From: Lentisphaerota bacterium
GTDB lineage: Bacteria; Verrucomicrobiota; Kiritimatiellia; PWTM01
Reading direction: 5' to 3'
NCBI GenBank assembly: GCA_016873715.1
Contig: VGWF01000004.1
Coordinates: forward strand, 1 to 64,000
Length of the DNA stretch: 64,000 nt
The position numbers and the translations under genes are program-made. Below the pieces are notes generated by a model. The model saw only the letters and a list, made by a program, of their open reading frames with translations. It did not search any database and had not been told where the DNA came from. This document shows, piece after piece, positions 31,159-43,266 of this stretch (its first letter is position 1; every line of letters begins with the position of its first letter).

Positions 31159-32574
31159 CTACTTCTGCTCTTCCTTCACGGCGCCCGAATCCTTGGCTAC
31201 GGGGCCGGCGGCGGGGTCGCGGTCGAACTCGAGCTTCACGACCATGACGCTGTTGGCGAGTTCGTTGGCCGGGAGCCCGTGGATGCGCAGGTAGGCCTTC
31301 TGCTCGGCGTGGTCGCTGGGGACCATGGTGACGGCGCAGTCGACGGGCTTCCCGGTGTTCAGCAGCGTCGCGCGGACGGGCAGCGTCGCGAGCGGCTTGA
31401 GCTTCACCGCGTCGCCGGCCGGGTCCTTGTGCAGGTGGACGTAGATCGTGTTGCCGCGGCGCGTGAGCAGGACGTTGCGGTTGGACGTGAGCTGCGACGC
31501 GGGCTGGACGCCGTCGAACGCCTCCCGCACCTTGGCGTGCCACGCGCCGATGCGCCGCAGGATCGCGGCGGCCCCGGCGGGGATGACGCCCTCGCCGGAG
31601 GGGCCGACGTTGAGCAGGTAGTTCGCGTCGCGCGCGAGGTAGGCGTCGATGCTGCGCATCAGGTGCCGGTCGGTGTAGTAGTCCTCGTCCTTCCGGTAGC
31701 CCCAGCTCTCCATGCCGACGGACTGGCACGCCTCGGTCGGCCGTTCGAACCCCGCCGCGTCGCCGGCCTTCTGGTCGTAGTCCCGCTCGGGCGTGCCGAA
31801 GTCGCCGTCGTCGAAGCCGCGGTTGTTGATGACGGCCTTCGGCTGGAGCTGCCGGATCATCGCGTTGATGGACCTGTCCACGTGCTTGGGCACGTTCATG
31901 TCCCACCAGAAGCCGTGGATCTCGCCGTAGTTCGTGCACAGCTCGCGGACCTGGGCCTTGAGGAACTCCAGGTACTTCATCCAGTCGGGCGAATCGCCCG
32001 GCTGCGGCGGCAGCTCGTGGTGGCGGCCCTCGTTGGGATAGTTCGGCTGGTTCCAGTCGGCGATGGAGTAGTAGAGGCACAGCGGCACGCCGCGCCGGTG
32101 GCAGGCGTCGGCCAACGGGCGCACGACGTCCTTCCCGTACGGCGTGTTCATCGTGTTGAAGGCGGTCTGCTTCGTGTCCCAGAGGCAGAAGCCGTCGTGG
32201 TGCTTGGTCGTCAGGCAGATGTACTTCATGCCCGCGGCCTCGACGAGGTCGAGCCAGGCGTTCGCGTCGAACTTCACGGGGTTCCACTGCCCGGCGAGCT
32301 TCACGTACTCGGCGCGAGGCACGCGGGCGCGCCACTGCTCCTGCTCGTGGAACCCGTGGATGGCGTAGAGGCCCCAGTGGACGAACATGCCGAAGCGCGC
32401 ATCGAAGAACCAGTCGCGTCCGTCGCCGAAGCGTTTCGCGGCCTTGGGCGTGGCCGACACGGTGGCGTACTCCGCCGCTCCGGCCGCGCGGGGGGCGGCG
32501 GCGAGAAGGGCGGGTGCGGCGGCGAGCGCGCCGGCGCTGCCGGCGGATCGAACGAGAAAGTCCCTGCGCTTCAT
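31159..32574 (-). CDS. Alpha-L-fucosidase (GH29), Tat-type signal
   Basis: MKRRDFLVRSAG; WFFDARFGMFVHWGLYAI; YICLTTKHHDGFCLWDTKQT; NYLLNVGPSGEGVIP. Confidence 0.92.
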   Translation of the reverse strand: MKRRDFLVRSAGSAGALAAAPALLAAAPRAAGAAEYATVSATPKAAKRFGDGRDWFFDARFGMFVHWGLYAIHGFHEQEQWRARVPRAEYVKLAGQWNPVKFDANAWLDLVEAAGMKYICLTTKHHDGFCLWDTKQTAFNTMNTPYGKDVVRPLADACHRRGVPLCLYYSIADWNQPNYPNEGRHHELPPQPGDSPDWMKYLEFLKAQVRELCTNYGEIHGFWWDMNVPKHVDRSINAMIRQLQPKAVINNRGFDDGDFGTPERDYDQKAGDAAGFERPTEACQSVGMESWGYRKDEDYYTDRHLMRSIDAYLARDANYLLNVGPSGEGVIPAGAAAILRRIGAWHAKVREAFDGVQPASQLTSNRNVLLTRRGNTIYVHLHKDPAGDAVKLKPLATLPVRATLLNTGKPVDCAVTMVPSDHAEQKAYLRIHGLPANELANSVMVVKLEFDRDPAAGPVAKDSGAVKEEQK

Positions 32575-32783
32575 GGCGGTGGTCTCCCGGCGAAACCCCT
32601 TACACTGGTGCGATGCGGTGCGGGATACAAGCGAAAAGGCTCTTTCCCGACGGTTCGGGCTCCCGGGAACCACCACGAATAGCCGCAGAATTTTCTTTCC
32701 AGGGCCATGCGCCGTGCGGGATGATCCGCCCAAGCCTGCGAGGGGCATGCGGTGGGATCGCGGGCGAGTGGAGGGTTTGGGGC

Positions 32784-35700
32784 ATGAAGGGCATCGTGAC
32801 CTGCGGAAAAGGAACCCTGCGCCTGCTCGTACTCCTGTCGGGTCTGGCCGGGCCGGCGGGGGCGGTCGACGTGACCCTGAAGACGCCGGATGGGGGGGGG
32901 CACTCGGCCTTCCTGATCGGCACGAACTGGAGCGACGGCAACGCACCGTCGGCCGGAAACAACTACATCGTCGCGTACAACGGCATGCGGACCCCGACCG
33001 GCGGAACCACGGCCTACACGTTCGGCGGCGATTCCCTGCGACTCGACGGCCCGAACGGGCTGATCAACTTCAAGCAGTCGAACACGATCACGATCGCCAG
33101 CCTGCTGCTGAACGGCGGGAGCGTTCACCATGGTAGCGCGGGCGTCACGCCGGACATCGCGCGACTGGCGGGCACCATCACCGTTCTGGCCCCCTCGGCC
33201 TTCCGCACCGACGGTGCCGGCCGGACCTTCCAGATCCGGTCGTCCATCACCGGAAGCCAGGACCTGATCTTCTACAGCACCTTCACGACGGGGACCATGT
33301 GGACGAATCAGTTGACGACCGTGGCCAACGGAGGCTTCACCGGGCGGATGGTCGTCAGCAACCGGACGGTGCTCGTGATCAACGACGAGAACCGGCTCGG
33401 CGCCAACCCGGCCGCGTTCGCGAACAATCACCTTGCGCTGCTCAACGGCGGAACGCTGCAGATCGCCGGCAACATCAACCTCGACGATGCCAACCGCGGC
33501 ATCACGGTGGGCGGGGCGGCCGGGGGCGTCATCGATGTCAACGGCGGCAACACCGTGTGGAACTGGCTGCCCATCACCGGGGCCGCGTCGTTCACCAAGT
33601 CGGGCGCCGGGACCCTCTACCTGCGCGTCATCTCCAACCACACCGCGAACACCTACAGCGGCGGGACGATCCTCCAGGACGGCACCCTCGCGGCGATGAC
33701 CCGCGGCGCGCTCGGCAGCGGCAATGCGACGATCAACGGCGGCCGCCTCGACATCGCCTCGCGCGGCTTCCAGGGCACGACGATCACCGTCGGCGGCAAT
33801 GGCGGCACGCTCGTGCTCAGCGGCTCGAACACCGCCGGCGCGGCGGCGATCACGATCAACCGCGGCGGCCGGCTCCTCATCAACGCGCCGGGCGGCGCGG
33901 ATGGCGCGACGGTGACGTGGAACGACGGCGGCGTCCGGCAGTTCGCGCGGCCGGATCTGCTGCCGTCCACCGCGCTTCTTGCGAGCGGTTCGCGGATCGT
34001 CGAGACCTATGCCAGTGCCGCGCATCCGGTCGACGCCGCCTTCATGGCCGCCATCGACACGGCGTCGGACGGGACGGTCGGCATCGGCGTCAACAACGCA
34101 ATGGGCGTGCTCGACATGAGTGCCCATCCCGGCATGTGGGTCGGCGCGGCGACCAACATGAATGTGACGTTCCTGGGCACGATCCTCCCGGCCGATCCGA
34201 ACGCCTACCATCTCGGCGGCGGGCTCGCCGGTGCGCGGATCAACGGCAACACGGGACTTTCGATCGGCACGCTGACCGGCTCGCGCGACGTGGTCGTCGG
34301 CTCAACCGGCGTCGTGACGCTGATCGCCGGCAACACCTACTCGGGCCGCACGATCATCTCGAACAACGCGGGAGTCGTCGTCAACTCCGGCAACAACGCA
34401 TGGGGTGTCGCCCCCGGGGCGTTCCAGGCGGACAACGTGACGATGGACGGCGGCTACATCCGCTTGCAGAACAACGTTCAGTTCACCTTCGGCCCGACCC
34501 GCGGCTTCACACTCGGCTCCCTGGGCGGCGAATTCAACATCTGGAGCGGCGGCGCCGTGGCGACGGTCGACGGGCCGATCACCGGCCCCGGCCTCCTGCG
34601 GTTCTCCGATGCCGGTTCGATCGTGCTTTCGGCGGCCAACACCTATGCCGGCGGCACGGTGGGCGGCACGTTCCTGCGGCTCGGCAACGACGGTTCGCTG
34701 GGCTCCGGCCCGGTGGTCCTGACCGGCGGCGGCCTCGGCTCCACGGGGTCGACCGCGGTGGCGATCGCCAACAGCCTCGGCGTGGCGGGCACGATCACCC
34801 TCGGCGACACGGTGCGGAACGGGCTCCTGACGCTGAACGGAGGGGTGGACCTGTCCAACGCCACGCGGACGGTGACCGTGAACAGCGACGTCGTGGTGAA
34901 CGGCGTCGTCGCCAACGGCGGGTTGACGAAGGCCGGGGCGGGCCGGCTGACGCTGAACACGGCCAACACCTATACGAACGGCACGACGATCAACGACGGC
35001 ACGCTGGTCCTCGGCAGCGACGCGGCGCTCGGCGGGGGAACGGCGGCCGTCAACCTCAACGGTGCGACCGTGCGGCTGCAGGCGGCCGATGCGACGGCGC
35101 GGACGGTGACCAACGCCGTGACGTTCTCGCAAAACGTCACGCTCGGGGCCGCGGGCACCGGCGCCTTGACCTTCGACGCCGCGTGGAACAACGGCGGCGC
35201 GGCCAAGACCCTGACGATCGACGGCATCACCGCCTCCTTCGTCCGCGGGCTGACGAACACCGGCGCGCTGGTGATCGGCGGCAACGGGACGCTCGCCCTC
35301 GGCTCCACGGCGGACATTCCGCTGGCCGCGCAGCTCGTCGTGCTGCAGGGCGCGACGCTCGACGCCTCGGCGCTGGCCGCCCTGGCGCGCACGACGGGCT
35401 CGCTGGAGGGCGGGGGAACGGTCAACGGCAACGTGGACCTCCATGCCGGCACGCGGCTGCTGCCGGGCTCGGTCAACTCCGCGCAGACCCTGACGGTGGG
35501 CGGGGATCTCGACATGGTGGCGTTGGTGACGAACTTCTTCGAGGTCGGCGACAACCCGACCCTGATCGGGACGGCCGACCGCGTCGACGTCGGCGGGAAT
35601 CTCAATCCCAACGGCGCCGTCATCCGGGTCGATCCGATCTCGGGCATGGCGGCCGGGAACCACACGCTGTTCACCTACGCGGGTTCGCTCGGGTCGAGCT

Positions 35701-38700
35701 TCGACGCGACGGTCGCCGGGCATCCGGGCAGCGACGTGCGGTTCGGCTGGACCGGGCTCGCCGAGGGCGGGGGCGTGGTCGACCTCGTCGTCACCGGCAG
35801 CAGCGCCGTGCTCACGTGGGACGGCTCCGGCTCCGCGGTGTGGGACACGACGAGCACCGCCGCGTGGGCCCTCGGCGCGGAGAAGTTCTTCTCGTTCGAC
35901 CGCGTGGTCTTCGATGACGGCGGCGTGGCGGCGGTGACGGTCGGATCGGTCGTCCGGCCCGACGGCATGGTCGTTTCGGGTTCGCAGGACTACGCATTCA
36001 CCGGCACGGGCGCCATCAGCGGCTGGACGGATATCCGGAAGACCGGCTCCGGCTCGCTGACCCTGGGCACCCCGAACACCTTCACCGGCACCGTGTGGGC
36101 GACCGAGGGCAGGATCGTGGCGGGCACCAACGCGGCGCTGGGGTCCGGCGCCGTCGGCGGCACCGTCATCTCGAACGGCGCCACCCTGGAGCTCGCGTCC
36201 GGCGTCATCCTCGGCGACGAATGGCTGCGGCTCTCCGGCCACGGCATCGCGGGCACCGGCGCGGTTGTACGGCTCGGCGCCCCGACGGGCAACAACGATG
36301 GGGTCCGGCGGATCACGCTGGACGGCGACACGACGATCAACACGCCCGGCAAGGTGGACTTCCGCGGCGGCACAACCCGCTTCCTCGATCTCAACGGGTA
36401 CGAACTCACCAAGGCCGGGACGAGCACCCTGATGTTCGTCTCGACGGTGCTCTCGAACACCGGGTCCATCGTGGTCAACGAGGGCATCCTGGCGATCGAG
36501 GGAACGACCGTGGGCGTGGGGACGCCCGGCAGCATCCGCGTGAAGCCCGGGGCCCTGCTGGTCCTGGCGGCCCATAACGGAAACCCGACCTACGTGTGGA
36601 CGAACGTGATGCAGGGCGGGGTCGTGGGCAACTACCCGGCCGCCGGCTTCGGCAACAGCAACCCGGACCTGCCGACCCCGTTCCGTCTCGAGTCCGACAC
36701 GGAGTTCCGGGTCGCCGGAAACGACATGACCCTCCGCGGGTCGATCGGCGGCGCCGGGCGCCTGGAAATGACCGGCAGCGGCAACCTCTACGTGCGCGGC
36801 ACGAACACCTACGCCGGTGGCACCCTGATCACGTCCGGCCGGGTCGTCACGGCCAGCGCCTCGACGGCTCCGCTCGGCGCCGGCGTCGTCGACGTCCGTG
36901 GCGACATCAACGGGCAACTCTGGCCGATCGAAGCCTCCATGATCGCCAATCCCGTGACCATCCAAGGCCTCGGGTGGAACGAGACCGCGGGGCATCTCGG
37001 CGCGATCCGTCTGTCCGGCACGGGCACCATCAGCGGTCCGGTCACCCTGGCGGCGGACAGCCGCATCGTCGCATACGCCGCGGGGGACAGCGGCGAGATT
37101 TCCGGGACGATCTCCGGCGCGTCGAAACTCGAACTCAACTGGAATGACGCCGGCAAGACGATGGGCGCCGGGACGATCACGCTCTCCGGCGACAACAGCG
37201 GGTTCGGTGGAACCATGGACCTCCGCAACGGGACGTTGCGGCTGGGGCACAACAACGCGCTCGGCCCGAACACGTTCTACATGTCCGGCGGGCGCATTGT
37301 TCCGAGCGGGACGGTCGCACGGACGATCGGCAACTCCATGGTGATCTCGAACACCGTCCGGTTCGGCGGCGGAGCGCCGACGGACAACGGCGCGCTGACG
37401 TTCAACGGGGCCATCGACGGCCCGGCCCACATGATGATCGAGGGCTTCAACAACGTTACGTTCAGCGGATCGGTCTCGCCGACGGGAGTGCTTGCGGTTA
37501 CCGGCTACGGATCCGTATCCTTCAACGCACCCATCACCCAGACCGCCCAGCTCGTCGCCAACGGCTACGGCGGCACGCTGTACCTCAACGCGGCCAACAC
37601 CTACACCGGCGACACGATCGTCGCGGGCCGCAATCTCGTGCTCGGCAACGCCGGGGCGATCCCGACCGGCGCGGGCAAGGGGAACCTGATCATCGGCCAG
37701 CGGACCACCCTGGACCTTGCCGGCCTCAGCCCCGCTTTCAACGGCCTCGGCGGCGTCGGGGCGATCACGGACAGCGTCGGATCGGTCACGACGGTCAGCA
37801 TCGGCGGCAACAACTCGACGTCGTACTTCAGCGGCGCCCTGCAGGGCGGGATCGGAACGCTCCGGAAGACCGGGGACGGCGTGCTCCACCTCGCCCGCGG
37901 GCTGGGCGGCGGGAAGGCGCTGGACATCCAGGCCGGCCGGGTGATGGTCAACGGCAACGTCGCCGGCCCCGTCGCGCTGACGGCGGGCGCGGTCCTCGAT
38001 GTCACCGGCAATGGCCTGTTGGGCGAGTACTTCGGCGCAGGGACGTGGTCCGTGAACAACGAAGACCCGCGACTGTGGTCGCCGGAGGCCTTCGACGCCT
38101 ACGTGGCCGGCACGAACAAGATCGTCGAGGCTTCCAGCGCGTCGGCCGGGATGGAGTTCAGCTTCGGCGGCGCCGGCGCGCCGCTGTTCCCGGTGCCGTT
38201 CGACCGGCGCAATGACCGGGCGGTGAACTTCTACGCCCGCTACACCGGTACGTTCATGGCCCCGACCAACGGCGACTACACGTTCCAGACCCGCACGGAC
38301 GACGGAAGCACGCTGTGGATCGACGACCGGTTGGTCGTCTACAACGCCCGCTACCAGGGCGCGGCGAACCGAAGCGGGACCATCGCCCTGACGGCCGGCG
38401 AGCACGACATCCGCATCCTGTACGTCCAGGGTGCCGGCGGACTGGAGCTTTCCGCACTCGTCTCCGGCGCGAACATTCCGAACAGCCTGCTGAAGATGAG
38501 GAATGAGATCGCGATCGGGGATCTCCGCGGGGCGGCCGGATCGATCCTTTCGCTGACGGGCAACGTCCCGGTGCGCATCGTGCAGACCTCGACGCAGACG
38601 TTCGCCGGTGCGGTGATCGGCGCCGGACCGATGGTGAAGGACGGGGCCGGCATGCTCGAGCTGACGGCCGCCAGTCCGTTCGCGGGAACGGTCTCCGTGA

Positions 38701-39275
38701 CGGCCGGAACGCTGCGGGTCAGCGGGGACCTGACCGCCGCGGGCCTGATCACCGTCCATGACGGCGCCAAGCTGGACGGCGTGGGGTTCATGGGCAGCGT
38801 CGACGTCGAAGGGGGCGGCCGACTGTCGCCGGGCAACAGCCCCGGGACGATGACGGTCACGGGCGGCCTCACGCTGCGAAGCGGGGCGACGTTCGTGGTC
38901 GAACTCAACGGGAACCTGCCGGGCTCGGAGTACGACCAGTTGTACATGAGCGGTGCGACTCCGACGCTGACCCTGCAGGATCCGAAGCTGCTCGTGTCGC
39001 TCGGGTTCACCCCTATCCAGGGCGACATCTTCACGATCGTCGCCGGATTCAGCACGCTGGCCGGCTCGGGAACCTTCGACGGGCTGCCCGACGGGGCGCA
39101 CTTCGTGGTCGATTCGACGGAGTTCGAGATCGACTACGACACCTCGTCGATCACGCTGACCGTGGTCCCGGAGCCCGGCGCGCTGGGGATCCTCGGGCTG
39201 GTCGGCATCGCCGCAGTCCTGCGTCTCCGAAAAGCCGGCAGGCCGGACGCGGCGACCGTGGACCGTCAGGACTGA
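32784..39275 (+). CDS. 2163-aa surface protein: autotransporter-associated beta-strand (PATR) repeats, PA14 domain, PEP-CTERM anchor
   Basis: NTYSGGTILQDGTLAAMTRGALGSGNATINGGRL and related repeats; LLGEYFGAGTWS...NFYARYTGTFMAPTNGDYTFQTRTDDGSTLWIDD (PA14); VVPEPGALGILGLVGIAAVLRLRK (PEP-CTERM). Confidence 0.93.
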   Translation: MKGIVTCGKGTLRLLVLLSGLAGPAGAVDVTLKTPDGGGHSAFLIGTNWSDGNAPSAGNNYIVAYNGMRTPTGGTTAYTFGGDSLRLDGPNGLINFKQSNTITIASLLLNGGSVHHGSAGVTPDIARLAGTITVLAPSAFRTDGAGRTFQIRSSITGSQDLIFYSTFTTGTMWTNQLTTVANGGFTGRMVVSNRTVLVINDENRLGANPAAFANNHLALLNGGTLQIAGNINLDDANRGITVGGAAGGVIDVNGGNTVWNWLPITGAASFTKSGAGTLYLRVISNHTANTYSGGTILQDGTLAAMTRGALGSGNATINGGRLDIASRGFQGTTITVGGNGGTLVLSGSNTAGAAAITINRGGRLLINAPGGADGATVTWNDGGVRQFARPDLLPSTALLASGSRIVETYASAAHPVDAAFMAAIDTASDGTVGIGVNNAMGVLDMSAHPGMWVGAATNMNVTFLGTILPADPNAYHLGGGLAGARINGNTGLSIGTLTGSRDVVVGSTGVVTLIAGNTYSGRTIISNNAGVVVNSGNNAWGVAPGAFQADNVTMDGGYIRLQNNVQFTFGPTRGFTLGSLGGEFNIWSGGAVATVDGPITGPGLLRFSDAGSIVLSAANTYAGGTVGGTFLRLGNDGSLGSGPVVLTGGGLGSTGSTAVAIANSLGVAGTITLGDTVRNGLLTLNGGVDLSNATRTVTVNSDVVVNGVVANGGLTKAGAGRLTLNTANTYTNGTTINDGTLVLGSDAALGGGTAAVNLNGATVRLQAADATARTVTNAVTFSQNVTLGAAGTGALTFDAAWNNGGAAKTLTIDGITASFVRGLTNTGALVIGGNGTLALGSTADIPLAAQLVVLQGATLDASALAALARTTGSLEGGGTVNGNVDLHAGTRLLPGSVNSAQTLTVGGDLDMVALVTNFFEVGDNPTLIGTADRVDVGGNLNPNGAVIRVDPISGMAAGNHTLFTYAGSLGSSFDATVAGHPGSDVRFGWTGLAEGGGVVDLVVTGSSAVLTWDGSGSAVWDTTSTAAWALGAEKFFSFDRVVFDDGGVAAVTVGSVVRPDGMVVSGSQDYAFTGTGAISGWTDIRKTGSGSLTLGTPNTFTGTVWATEGRIVAGTNAALGSGAVGGTVISNGATLELASGVILGDEWLRLSGHGIAGTGAVVRLGAPTGNNDGVRRITLDGDTTINTPGKVDFRGGTTRFLDLNGYELTKAGTSTLMFVSTVLSNTGSIVVNEGILAIEGTTVGVGTPGSIRVKPGALLVLAAHNGNPTYVWTNVMQGGVVGNYPAAGFGNSNPDLPTPFRLESDTEFRVAGNDMTLRGSIGGAGRLEMTGSGNLYVRGTNTYAGGTLITSGRVVTASASTAPLGAGVVDVRGDINGQLWPIEASMIANPVTIQGLGWNETAGHLGAIRLSGTGTISGPVTLAADSRIVAYAAGDSGEISGTISGASKLELNWNDAGKTMGAGTITLSGDNSGFGGTMDLRNGTLRLGHNNALGPNTFYMSGGRIVPSGTVARTIGNSMVISNTVRFGGGAPTDNGALTFNGAIDGPAHMMIEGFNNVTFSGSVSPTGVLAVTGYGSVSFNAPITQTAQLVANGYGGTLYLNAANTYTGDTIVAGRNLVLGNAGAIPTGAGKGNLIIGQRTTLDLAGLSPAFNGLGGVGAITDSVGSVTTVSIGGNNSTSYFSGALQGGIGTLRKTGDGVLHLARGLGGGKALDIQAGRVMVNGNVAGPVALTAGAVLDVTGNGLLGEYFGAGTWSVNNEDPRLWSPEAFDAYVAGTNKIVEASSASAGMEFSFGGAGAPLFPVPFDRRNDRAVNFYARYTGTFMAPTNGDYTFQTRTDDGSTLWIDDRLVVYNARYQGAANRSGTIALTAGEHDIRILYVQGAGGLELSALVSGANIPNSLLKMRNEIAIGDLRGAAGSILSLTGNVPVRIVQTSTQTFAGAVIGAGPMVKDGAGMLELTAASPFAGTVSVTAGTLRVSGDLTAAGLITVHDGAKLDGVGFMGSVDVEGGGRLSPGNSPGTMTVTGGLTLRSGATFVVELNGNLPGSEYDQLYMSGATPTLTLQDPKLLVSLGFTPIQGDIFTIVAGFSTLAGSGTFDGLPDGAHFVVDSTEFEIDYDTSSITLTVVPEPGALGILGLVGIAAVLRLRKAGRPDAATVDRQD

Positions 39276-41719: not shown

Positions 41720-42334
41720 CTACAGATTGATGCCCGAGAACAGCATGAAGGTCATCGCCATGAGCCCCGTGACGATCATCGTGATCCCCAGCCCGCGCAG
41801 CCCCGGCGGGATGTTCGAGTAGCGGAGCTTCTTGCGGATGGCGCCCATCGCGATGATCGCCAGCGCCCACCCGGCGCCCGAGGCGAAGCCGTACACGAGC
41901 GTTTCCGGGAACGTGTACTGGCGCTCCACCATGAAGAGCGACCCGCCGAGGATCGCGCAGTTGACGGTGATCAGCGGGAGGAAGATGCCGAGGGCCTGGT
42001 AGAGCGGCGGGAAATAGCGGTCGAGCAGCATCTCGACCAGTTGCACGAGCGCCGCGATCGTCGCGATGAAGACGATGAAGTTCAGGAAGGAAAGGTCCAG
42101 CGCCGCCAGCGCCGGAACGCCCGTCCACGCCAGCGCCCCGGGGTCCAGGAAGAAGTGCTTGAGCGCCCAGTTGACCGGCACCGTGATGAACTGGACCAGC
42201 GTGACGGCGACGCCGAGCCCGATGGCGGTCTCGATGCGCTTCGAGATCGCCAGGAACGAGCACATCCCGAGGAACGTCGAGAGCAGGATGTTCTCGATGA
42301 AGATCGACCGCACCGCCAAGCTCAGCAGATCCAT
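41720..42334 (-). CDS. nqrE: Na+-NQR subunit E
   Basis: [40 protein letters not shown]. Confidence 0.97.
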
Positions 42335-42345
42335 GGTTCCTCCCG

Positions 42346-42661
42346 GGATTCACCCAGAGACGCAGGACGGGAAGACCGACACCAAGACGCAAAGAACGCA
42401 AAGCGGCGTTCACACAGAGACGCAAAGAACGCGAAGTGAGAGGCGGCGGCCATCATTGATCGGCCCCCTTCAGAATCATGCGTACGATGCCGTCCTTGAG
42501 GACGGCCTCGTGGAAGTTGATCAGCAGGCCCGGGCCCATCTCGCGATGAACCTCGATGGCCGCGCCAATGACCTTGGACGACCACGCTTCAGCCTCTGGG
42601 TATCTTGGATGCATCCCGCTTCCGTCTTCTCTTTGCGCCCTTTGCGTCTTGGTGTGAATCC
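42346..42661. mobile_element. Insertion-like module between nqrD and nqrE
   Basis: 8-bp terminal inverted repeat GGATTCAC (42346-42353) / GTGAATCC (42654-42661), inner inverted CACCAAGACGCAAAG repeats, GxxExxY-like remnant inside. Confidence 0.6.
42453..42614 (-). pseudogene. GxxExxY-family protein remnant with in-frame internal deletion
   Basis: 53-aa ORF MHPRYPEAEAWSSKVIGAAIEVHREMGPGLLINFHEAVLKDGIVRMILKGADQ: N-terminal VIGAAIEVHRE-GPGLL joined directly to C-terminal LLINFHE..LKDGI.R.IL. Confidence 0.75.
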
Positions 42662-43266
42662 TAGGCGGTTTCGAAGTGTTTGGTGACCGAGCGCTGGGCC
42701 CAGATGAGGAGGCCGAGCACGATGAAGGCGCCGGGCGCCAGCAGCATCAGGCCGTTGGCCGGGTAGGACGCCGGCAGCACCGCGTAGCCCAGCAGCTTGC
42801 CCGAGCCGAGCAGTTCGCGCACGACGGCGACGATGACGAGGACGGCGCTGTAGCCCAGCCCGTTCGCCAGGCCGTCGATCAGCGAGGGCAGCGGCGGGTT
42901 CTGGAGCGCGTACGCCTCGAGGCGGCCCATGACGATGCAGTTCGTGATGATGAGCCCGACGAACACGCTGAGCTGGCGGCTGACGTCGAACATGTAGGCC
43001 CGGAGGAACTGGTCGGCGAGGATCACGAGCACCGACACGACGACCATCTCCACGATCATGCGGATCTTGGCCGGGATGGTGTTTCGAAGCAGGGAGATGA
43101 CAACGTTCGATCCCGCCGTGACGATGGTCAGGCTCGCCGCCATGACGAGCGCGGTCTTGAGCTGGGTGGTCACCGCGAGCGACGAGCAGATCCCGAGGAT
43201 CTGGATCGTGATCGGGTTGTTCTCCGACAGCGGATCGGTGAAGACCTTCTGGAGTTTCGCCGCCAT
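42661..43266 (-). CDS. nqrD: Na+-NQR subunit D
   Basis: NNPITIQILGICSSLAVTTQLKTALVMAASLT. Confidence 0.97.
   Translation of the reverse strand: MAAKLQKVFTDPLSENNPITIQILGICSSLAVTTQLKTALVMAASLTIVTAGSNVVISLLRNTIPAKIRMIVEMVVVSVLVILADQFLRAYMFDVSRQLSVFVGLIITNCIVMGRLEAYALQNPPLPSLIDGLANGLGYSAVLVIVAVVRELLGSGKLLGYAVLPASYPANGLMLLAPGAFIVLGLLIWAQRSVTKHFETA

Follow-up and report, generated by a model that had tools for sequence, protein, structure and literature searches.

The 23S rRNA intervening sequences, which have been termed selfish or mobile (PMC4990558), resemble the locus described here in their size (~430-500 bp), their single small gene (S23, TIGR02436) and their inverted ends. In Coxiella, the terminal inverted repeats of the S23 intervening sequence are cut by RNase III (PMC4990558). 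REPINs and RAYTs (PMC3116915) offer another likeness: dispersed intergenic inverted-repeat units, one repeat-flanked enzyme gene, and gene copies that are distinct within one genome and have their nearest relatives in other genomes. The Cas4/lambda-exonuclease family, including MGE-Cas4 and solo-Cas4 (PMC5704561), has the fold predicted for the GxxExxY protein and the same H...D...ExK...QxxxY motifs; inverted repeats go unmentioned in the main text of that article.

The window analyzed here is a 64,000-nucleotide stretch of DNA from a Lentisphaerota bacterium. Between its nqrD and nqrE genes lies what is almost certainly an inserted, internally deleted GxxExxY element. Our data point toward a decayed one-gene element with inverted ends made of 7-bp words and with movement driven by a nuclease, an explanation that as a whole we regard as probable. 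To our knowledge, GxxExxY and S23, two hypothetical gene families that are multicopy within genomes, have so far lacked a clear role. Should they power tiny mobile elements, the unexplained intergenic repeats CACAGAG, CGCAAAG, CACGAAT and ACAGGAT gain an owner and harmless insertion into essential operons becomes testable, and the window copy illustrates decay to ends without an enzyme. In the open-access literature on GxxExxY and on the repeat words, we found no paper that describes such elements as mobile (subscription papers and preprints lay outside our reach), and a passage on GxxExxY there is concerned with matters other than mobility.

The insert between nqrD and nqrE

The nqr genes of the window lie on the minus strand, and the stop codon of nqrD (42661-42663) is separated from the start of nqrE (42334) by 326 bp, as a first-pass annotation of the window had estimated. 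Neighboring spacings in the same operon are 4 bp (nqrC-nqrD) and 24 bp (nqrE-nqrF), and in 26 related genomes with recognizable nqrD and nqrE, among them every same-family genome that gave a match (seven), the nqrD-nqrE gap ranges from -1 to 67 bp, mostly 4 to 23. Because the gap is short in every one of these relatives, the module is read as an insertion. The first-pass annotation had read it in the same way and had named a long spacer common to the relatives as the finding that would speak against it; none of them has such a spacer. In the profile search, nqrD, nqrE and nqrF each score above their equivalog cut-offs.

Table 1. Features of the nqrD-nqrE region and of related loci. Coordinates are those of the window unless a contig is named.
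Feature	Position	Strand	Remark
Module read as an inserted, internally deleted GxxExxY element	42346..42661	-	316 bp; tips GGATTCAC/GTGAATCC
Minimal inserted unit	42347-42660		assumes an intact nqrD stop and an ancestral 12-nt gap
nqrD, upstream host gene	42661..43266	-	stop codon abuts the element; TIGR01939, 289 bits
nqrE, downstream host gene, intact	41720..42334	-	TIGR01940, 302.9 bits
Presumed leftover of the ancestral 12-nt nqrD-nqrE gap	42335..42346	-	CCGGGAGGAACC; contains GGGAGG ribosome-binding site
GxxExxY remnant, 53-aa ORF	42453..42614	-	N terminus to GPGLL fused in frame to INFHEAVLKDGIVRMILKGADQ
Terminal array 5' of the ORF remnant	42631..42661	-	coding strand GATTCA CACCAAG.A.CGCAAAG.GG.CGCAAAG
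3'-side array, inverted copy	42379..42403	+	CACCAAG.A.CGCAAAG.AA.CGCAAAG; same spacer lengths (1,2); 92%
Innermost 3'-side array	42412..42436	+	CACAGAG.A.CGCAAAG.AA.CGCGAAG
Outermost degenerate 3'-side array	42346..42374	+	GGATTCACCCAGAGACGCAGGACGGGAAG
Inverted repeat tips	42346-42353 and 42654-42661		GGATTCAC and GTGAATCC
Best arm pair	42379-42403 with 42631-42655		ACACCAAGACGCAAAGAACGCAAAG at the former; 25 nt, 92%
Further arm pair	42409-42439 with 42628-42658		31 nt, 81%
Degenerate outer pair	42339-42364/42643-42668		77%
Gene-less inverted pairs (genome G000)	C21:14795-14927; C50:890-1021; C88:3660-3928; C100:11806-11931
S23 loci	L244-L273; L242, L364, L365

The 8-bp inverted repeat said to bound the gap lies exactly where stated, and its right tip shares position 42661 with the nqrD stop codon, in keeping with the claim that the two touch. 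It is merely the outer tip of multi-word arms, so that of the element structure first proposed the inverted ends stand and their length does not: the ends exceed 8 bp, the left one comprising three arrays and the right one a single array (Table 1). On both sides, inverted CRCNRAK words follow each other at spacers of 1 to 3 nt that are equal between the arms (CACCAAG.A.CGCAAAG.NN.CGCAAAG), and CACCAAGACGCAAAG occurs in two exact copies in the window.

From the gap lengths of the relatives we infer an ancestral gap of 12 nt. Excision at GATTCAC/GTGAATC would restore TAG-CCGGGAGGAACC-ATG, that is, a relative-like 12-nt gap with its ribosome-binding site. The insert sits directly past the nqrD stop, and its minus-strand remnant is codirectional with the nqr genes, the same placement as that of the family elements. 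Thus, the insertion appears to have respected the operon, in that orientation and the ribosome-binding site of nqrE are kept. A target-site duplication, which the first-pass annotation had suggested looking for, is not evident at the insert. Searches with the insert gave zero matches in Rfam and, for its DNA, zero matches among plasmid sequences; distant GxxExxY genes are present in eight plasmid records, and phage sequences yielded none. Elsewhere in the window, positions 32514-39275 hold a 2253-aa repetitive, autotransporter-like ORF that ends in a PEP-CTERM-like tail.

The ORF inside the module matches the GxxExxY profile (TIGR04256) over positions 3-31 (E = 1.4e-4; 22.2 bits, under the curated cut-off of 35) and reaches 21.7 bits against PF13366 (cut-off 22), and therefore is not a full-length family member. 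Relatives match it in two separate pieces, query residues 1-39 and 28-53, which correspond to the two family termini and bear out the deleted GxxExxY gene of the first-pass annotation. The intact 134-aa homolog L276 starts with MHPDYERANRWSKVAIGAAIEVHRHKGPGLIES and ends with IGLIINYNELILKNGISRLILKGADKP, where the window reads MHPRYPEAEAWSSKVIGAAIEVHREMGPGLL-INFHEAVLKDGIVRMILKGADQ; like L276, the window ORF opens with MHP and closes with ILKGAD. About 81 residues have been lost in frame, and the catalytic D, ExK and QxxxY, invariant in intact relatives, lie within the deleted stretch. Since the deletion removes them, the product of the ORF should be catalytically dead. Besides the remnant, a single GxxExxY gene is present in the window genome (97.6% complete); this gene is long and divergent, lies on contig C165 and is associated with different words. 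The genome apparently has no intact GxxExxY gene carrying the words of the module, and the element may well be non-autonomous, as had been supposed. A copy with the window's own deletion was sought in 97 genomes, and none was contiguous.

Two observations on other loci may be added. The long GxxExxY gene L029 (C165, ~998-1979) has a C-terminal extension, lies between inverted copies of GGCAAACGAATGGGGGCAAACGAAT and may interrupt another reading frame. In genome G039, an internally deleted GxxExxY gene recurs in several copies with a common deletion junction (L377, L378, L380 and L381); the copies also have ~80 to 95 bp of flank in common, which makes segmental duplication possible.

Word arrays, predicted enzyme and probable mobility of GxxExxY elements

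An intact GxxExxY member yields a predicted structure with a pLDDT of 94. Its top fold matches in the PDB (Foldseek) are the Cas4 protein SSO0001 (4ic1; probability 1.00) and lambda-type exonucleases, with marginal E values of 1.1e-3, and the conserved motif H, D, ExK, QxxxY agrees with a Cas4/lambda-exonuclease-like fold. A search of the PDB by sequence gave nothing meaningful. By fold and catalytic motif, intact GxxExxY is thus a predicted PD-(D/E)XK nuclease of the Cas4/RecB type.

To score inverted ends, we took the best inverted match between the 260-bp flanks of each locus, with flanks 700 bp further out as the control. We took 110 GxxExxY loci from the class to which the window genome belongs; for the 107 that were scored, the mean is 22.6 within a locus and 9.3 between flanks of different loci (p = 7.6e-61). 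The far-flank controls have a mean of 8.9 and a maximum of 12.5, a value that 98 of the 107 loci exceed. A second, independent sample of 75 loci was drawn from named genomes (Proteobacteria, Bacteroidota, Acidobacteria, Planctomycetes, Verrucomicrobia, Chloroflexi, Cyanobacteria, methanogenic archaea and others); 64 of them lie above 12.5, compared to 1 of 64 controls. Intact GxxExxY elements occur in many bacterial phyla and in some archaea. The first-pass annotation had held that it would count against an insertion if no other copies of the terminal repeats flanked similar modules; indeed, the same type of termini flanks most GxxExxY genes.

The elements are ~511 bp long (10-90%: 438-695), and the commonest period within their arms is 9 bp. 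The 7-bp word has the consensus C-R-C-N-R-A-K, with spacers of 1 to 3 nt, and array scoring picked out 62 of 92 left arms compared to 2 of 315 control 41-mers. At 56 loci, both arms contain three-word arrays, with spacer lengths equal between the arms in 51 (the right arm being fitted with a soft penalty). In these arrays, the identity between the arms is 92% for words and 60.5% for spacers; the word phase was fitted, and the exact figures therefore lean toward words. A position profile, itself anchored on the word pattern, drops likewise at the spacer. The difference indicates a conservation of the word beyond what pairing alone demands. Furthermore, similar proteins tend to go with similar spacer types and similar words (Mantel r = 0.15 and 0.21, respectively; p = 5e-4), a weak correlation that shared descent could partly explain.

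Mobility is indicated by empty sites. The joined flanks of 26 elements were compared with sibling species, and for ten of them a single alignment runs through the joined site in at least one and at most four siblings. These sites are compared between species, so gain and loss are told apart by the majority state. Several of the elements lie inside operons, in gaps that we take, from the flanking translations, to be carA-carB (L120), gatA-gatB (L074), V-type ATPase subunits (L178), a tyrA-aroA-type pair (L142) and an anthranilate synthase pair (L078). Within codirectional gene pairs, 74 of 83 elements point with the operon (74 versus 9; 46 + 28 versus 6 + 3), and the element starts ~8 to 9 bp past the upstream stop codon. 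The upstream gene is codirectional in 64 of 79 and 40 of 48 cases, for which the genomic baseline itself exceeds 50%, so the orientation count is cleaner. A family-wide scan for target-site duplications gave a best signal below that of shuffles. Among the sampled elements, the closest pairs are always in different genomes, which suggests dispersal from one genome to another and not bursts within one, and no near-identical copies were seen inside one genome, unlike in a freely transposing insertion sequence. In our view, gene and arms very probably move as one unit, as the joint presence and absence of their sequences would have it.

Arrays also occur without a gene. In the window genome, ACACNAAGACGCAAAG with up to two mismatches is found at 25 sites, versus 4 for the reversed control pattern, and several of the 25 form inverted pairs 115 to 270 bp apart (Table 1). 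A search with the whole insert yields arm-length matches only, and the interiors of these pairs are therefore unrelated; the pairs may be either decayed elements or mobilized units. At L108 and L113 (C50 and C100), the right arm, judged by eye, seemingly falls within the beginning of the following reading frame and would there contribute to a signal-peptide-like stretch. The multicopy S23 four-helix genes (TIGR02436) likewise have inverted arrays, with words at ~7 bp; 21 of 26 loci score above 12.5 (a small set, strands unchecked). S23 elements fill gaps that hold GxxExxY elements in other species, for example carA-carB (G013, G040) and V-ATPase (G023).

Proposed origin of the module and alternatives

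In our model, the nuclease would be made by read-through from the upstream gene and would bind the arrays at both ends, one word per ~9 bp. Cutting of DNA by the nuclease would start movement, and copying or joining would be left to host repair. A copy may then have landed just past the nqrD stop, with the ribosome-binding site of nqrE kept, before the ~81 codons were lost; the deletion perhaps joined two GGCCTGCTG-like stretches that resemble each other, and the arms were left with no functional enzyme between them. The simplest view is that word recognition and insertion are both the work of the nuclease, and we hold it with about half confidence. We give an even chance to the broader proposal of an undescribed class of elements in bacteria and archaea, in which a Cas4-like nuclease would recognize its own end words and insert, with biased orientation, past stop codons in operons. 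The words would differ between lineages within a common code, a parallel S23 class would use another period, and the window would hold a deletion derivative.

It is also conceivable that GxxExxY is only cargo or a partner and that an unlinked transposase or reverse transcriptase acts in trans on the arrays. The gene-less word pairs with unrelated interiors in the window genome would fit, as would the similar architecture of the S23 four-helix family. However, almost every sampled element encloses the gene (the loci were collected by way of the gene, which undercounts gene-less elements) and the word type tracks protein similarity. The different word period of S23 argues in the same direction, suggesting that each protein reads its own words, and we consider a mover in trans doubtful. 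Still less probable is that the arms act as RNA, as a long stem in the operon transcript on which RNase III might act, as it does on the 23S intervening sequences, with a mover other than GxxExxY. The insert does fold with a 25-bp inter-arm stem (-149.2 kcal/mol; z = -4.7), the strong orientation with transcription is what this would predict, and the RNase III cutting of the Coxiella ends (PMC4990558) might serve as an analogy. Yet any inverted repeat folds as RNA, the word code is common to unrelated loci and phyla, and selection for pairing predicts spacers that match as well as the words do, which is contrary to the observed 60.5% versus 92%.

Two further readings take the sequences as native to the operon. 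If the arms were operators or terminators that belong to an ordinary gene of the operon and serve autoregulation or insulation, genes in operon direction just past stop codons would be expected, and inverted arms could bind a regulator. We regard this as very improbable, since gene and both arms are jointly absent at the orthologous sites of sibling species and elsewhere the same gaps hold another gene family that has arms of its own. A long native nqrD-nqrE spacer with chance repeats has next to no probability, given the short gaps in 26 of 26 genomes and arms that match at 92% over a distance of 227 nt and fit the family-wide word code.

Comparison with known systems

Against the 23S rRNA intervening sequences, the module differs in that their protein is a four-helix bundle, their words have a period of ~7 bp and their known copies lie in 23S rRNA. 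A remnant of GxxExxY in an nqr operon, with no match in Rfam, was therefore not assigned to them. The dispersed S23 genes of the present genomes come closer, with inverted arrays and the same operon gaps as the GxxExxY elements. In comparison with RAYTs, which are Y1 HUH transposases, the GxxExxY enzyme is a predicted PD-(D/E)XK, Cas4-like nuclease; compared to REPINs, the ends are inverted arrays of 7-bp words with a ~9-bp period rather than REP palindromes, and the gene-containing units show empty sites. Identity with REPIN/RAYT systems was rejected on enzyme family and end structure, even though the gene-less pairs of the window genome resemble REPINs.

MITEs and internally deleted insertion sequences are likewise short, with inverted ends that are kept and an enzyme gene that is internally deleted. 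In contrast to them, the window element has neither a DDE transposase parent nor a detected target-site duplication, and no high-copy, near-identical family exists in its genome. A derivation from a MITE or insertion sequence was rejected, because the parent gene encodes a predicted PD-(D/E)XK nuclease and no known transposase, and no target duplication is seen. Free-standing homing endonucleases, too, are lone nuclease genes between genes, with few copies per genome and spread between genomes; they have one conserved target, whereas GxxExxY elements occupy many unrelated gaps and have their own inverted arrays at both ends. Relative to Cas4 proteins, GxxExxY is shorter (~125 aa) and bounded by word arrays.

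In sum, the combination of an enzyme gene with inverted ends is known. The GxxExxY elements stand apart by their enzyme, by ends built as word arrays and by operon-directed placement, and in that no target duplication could be detected.
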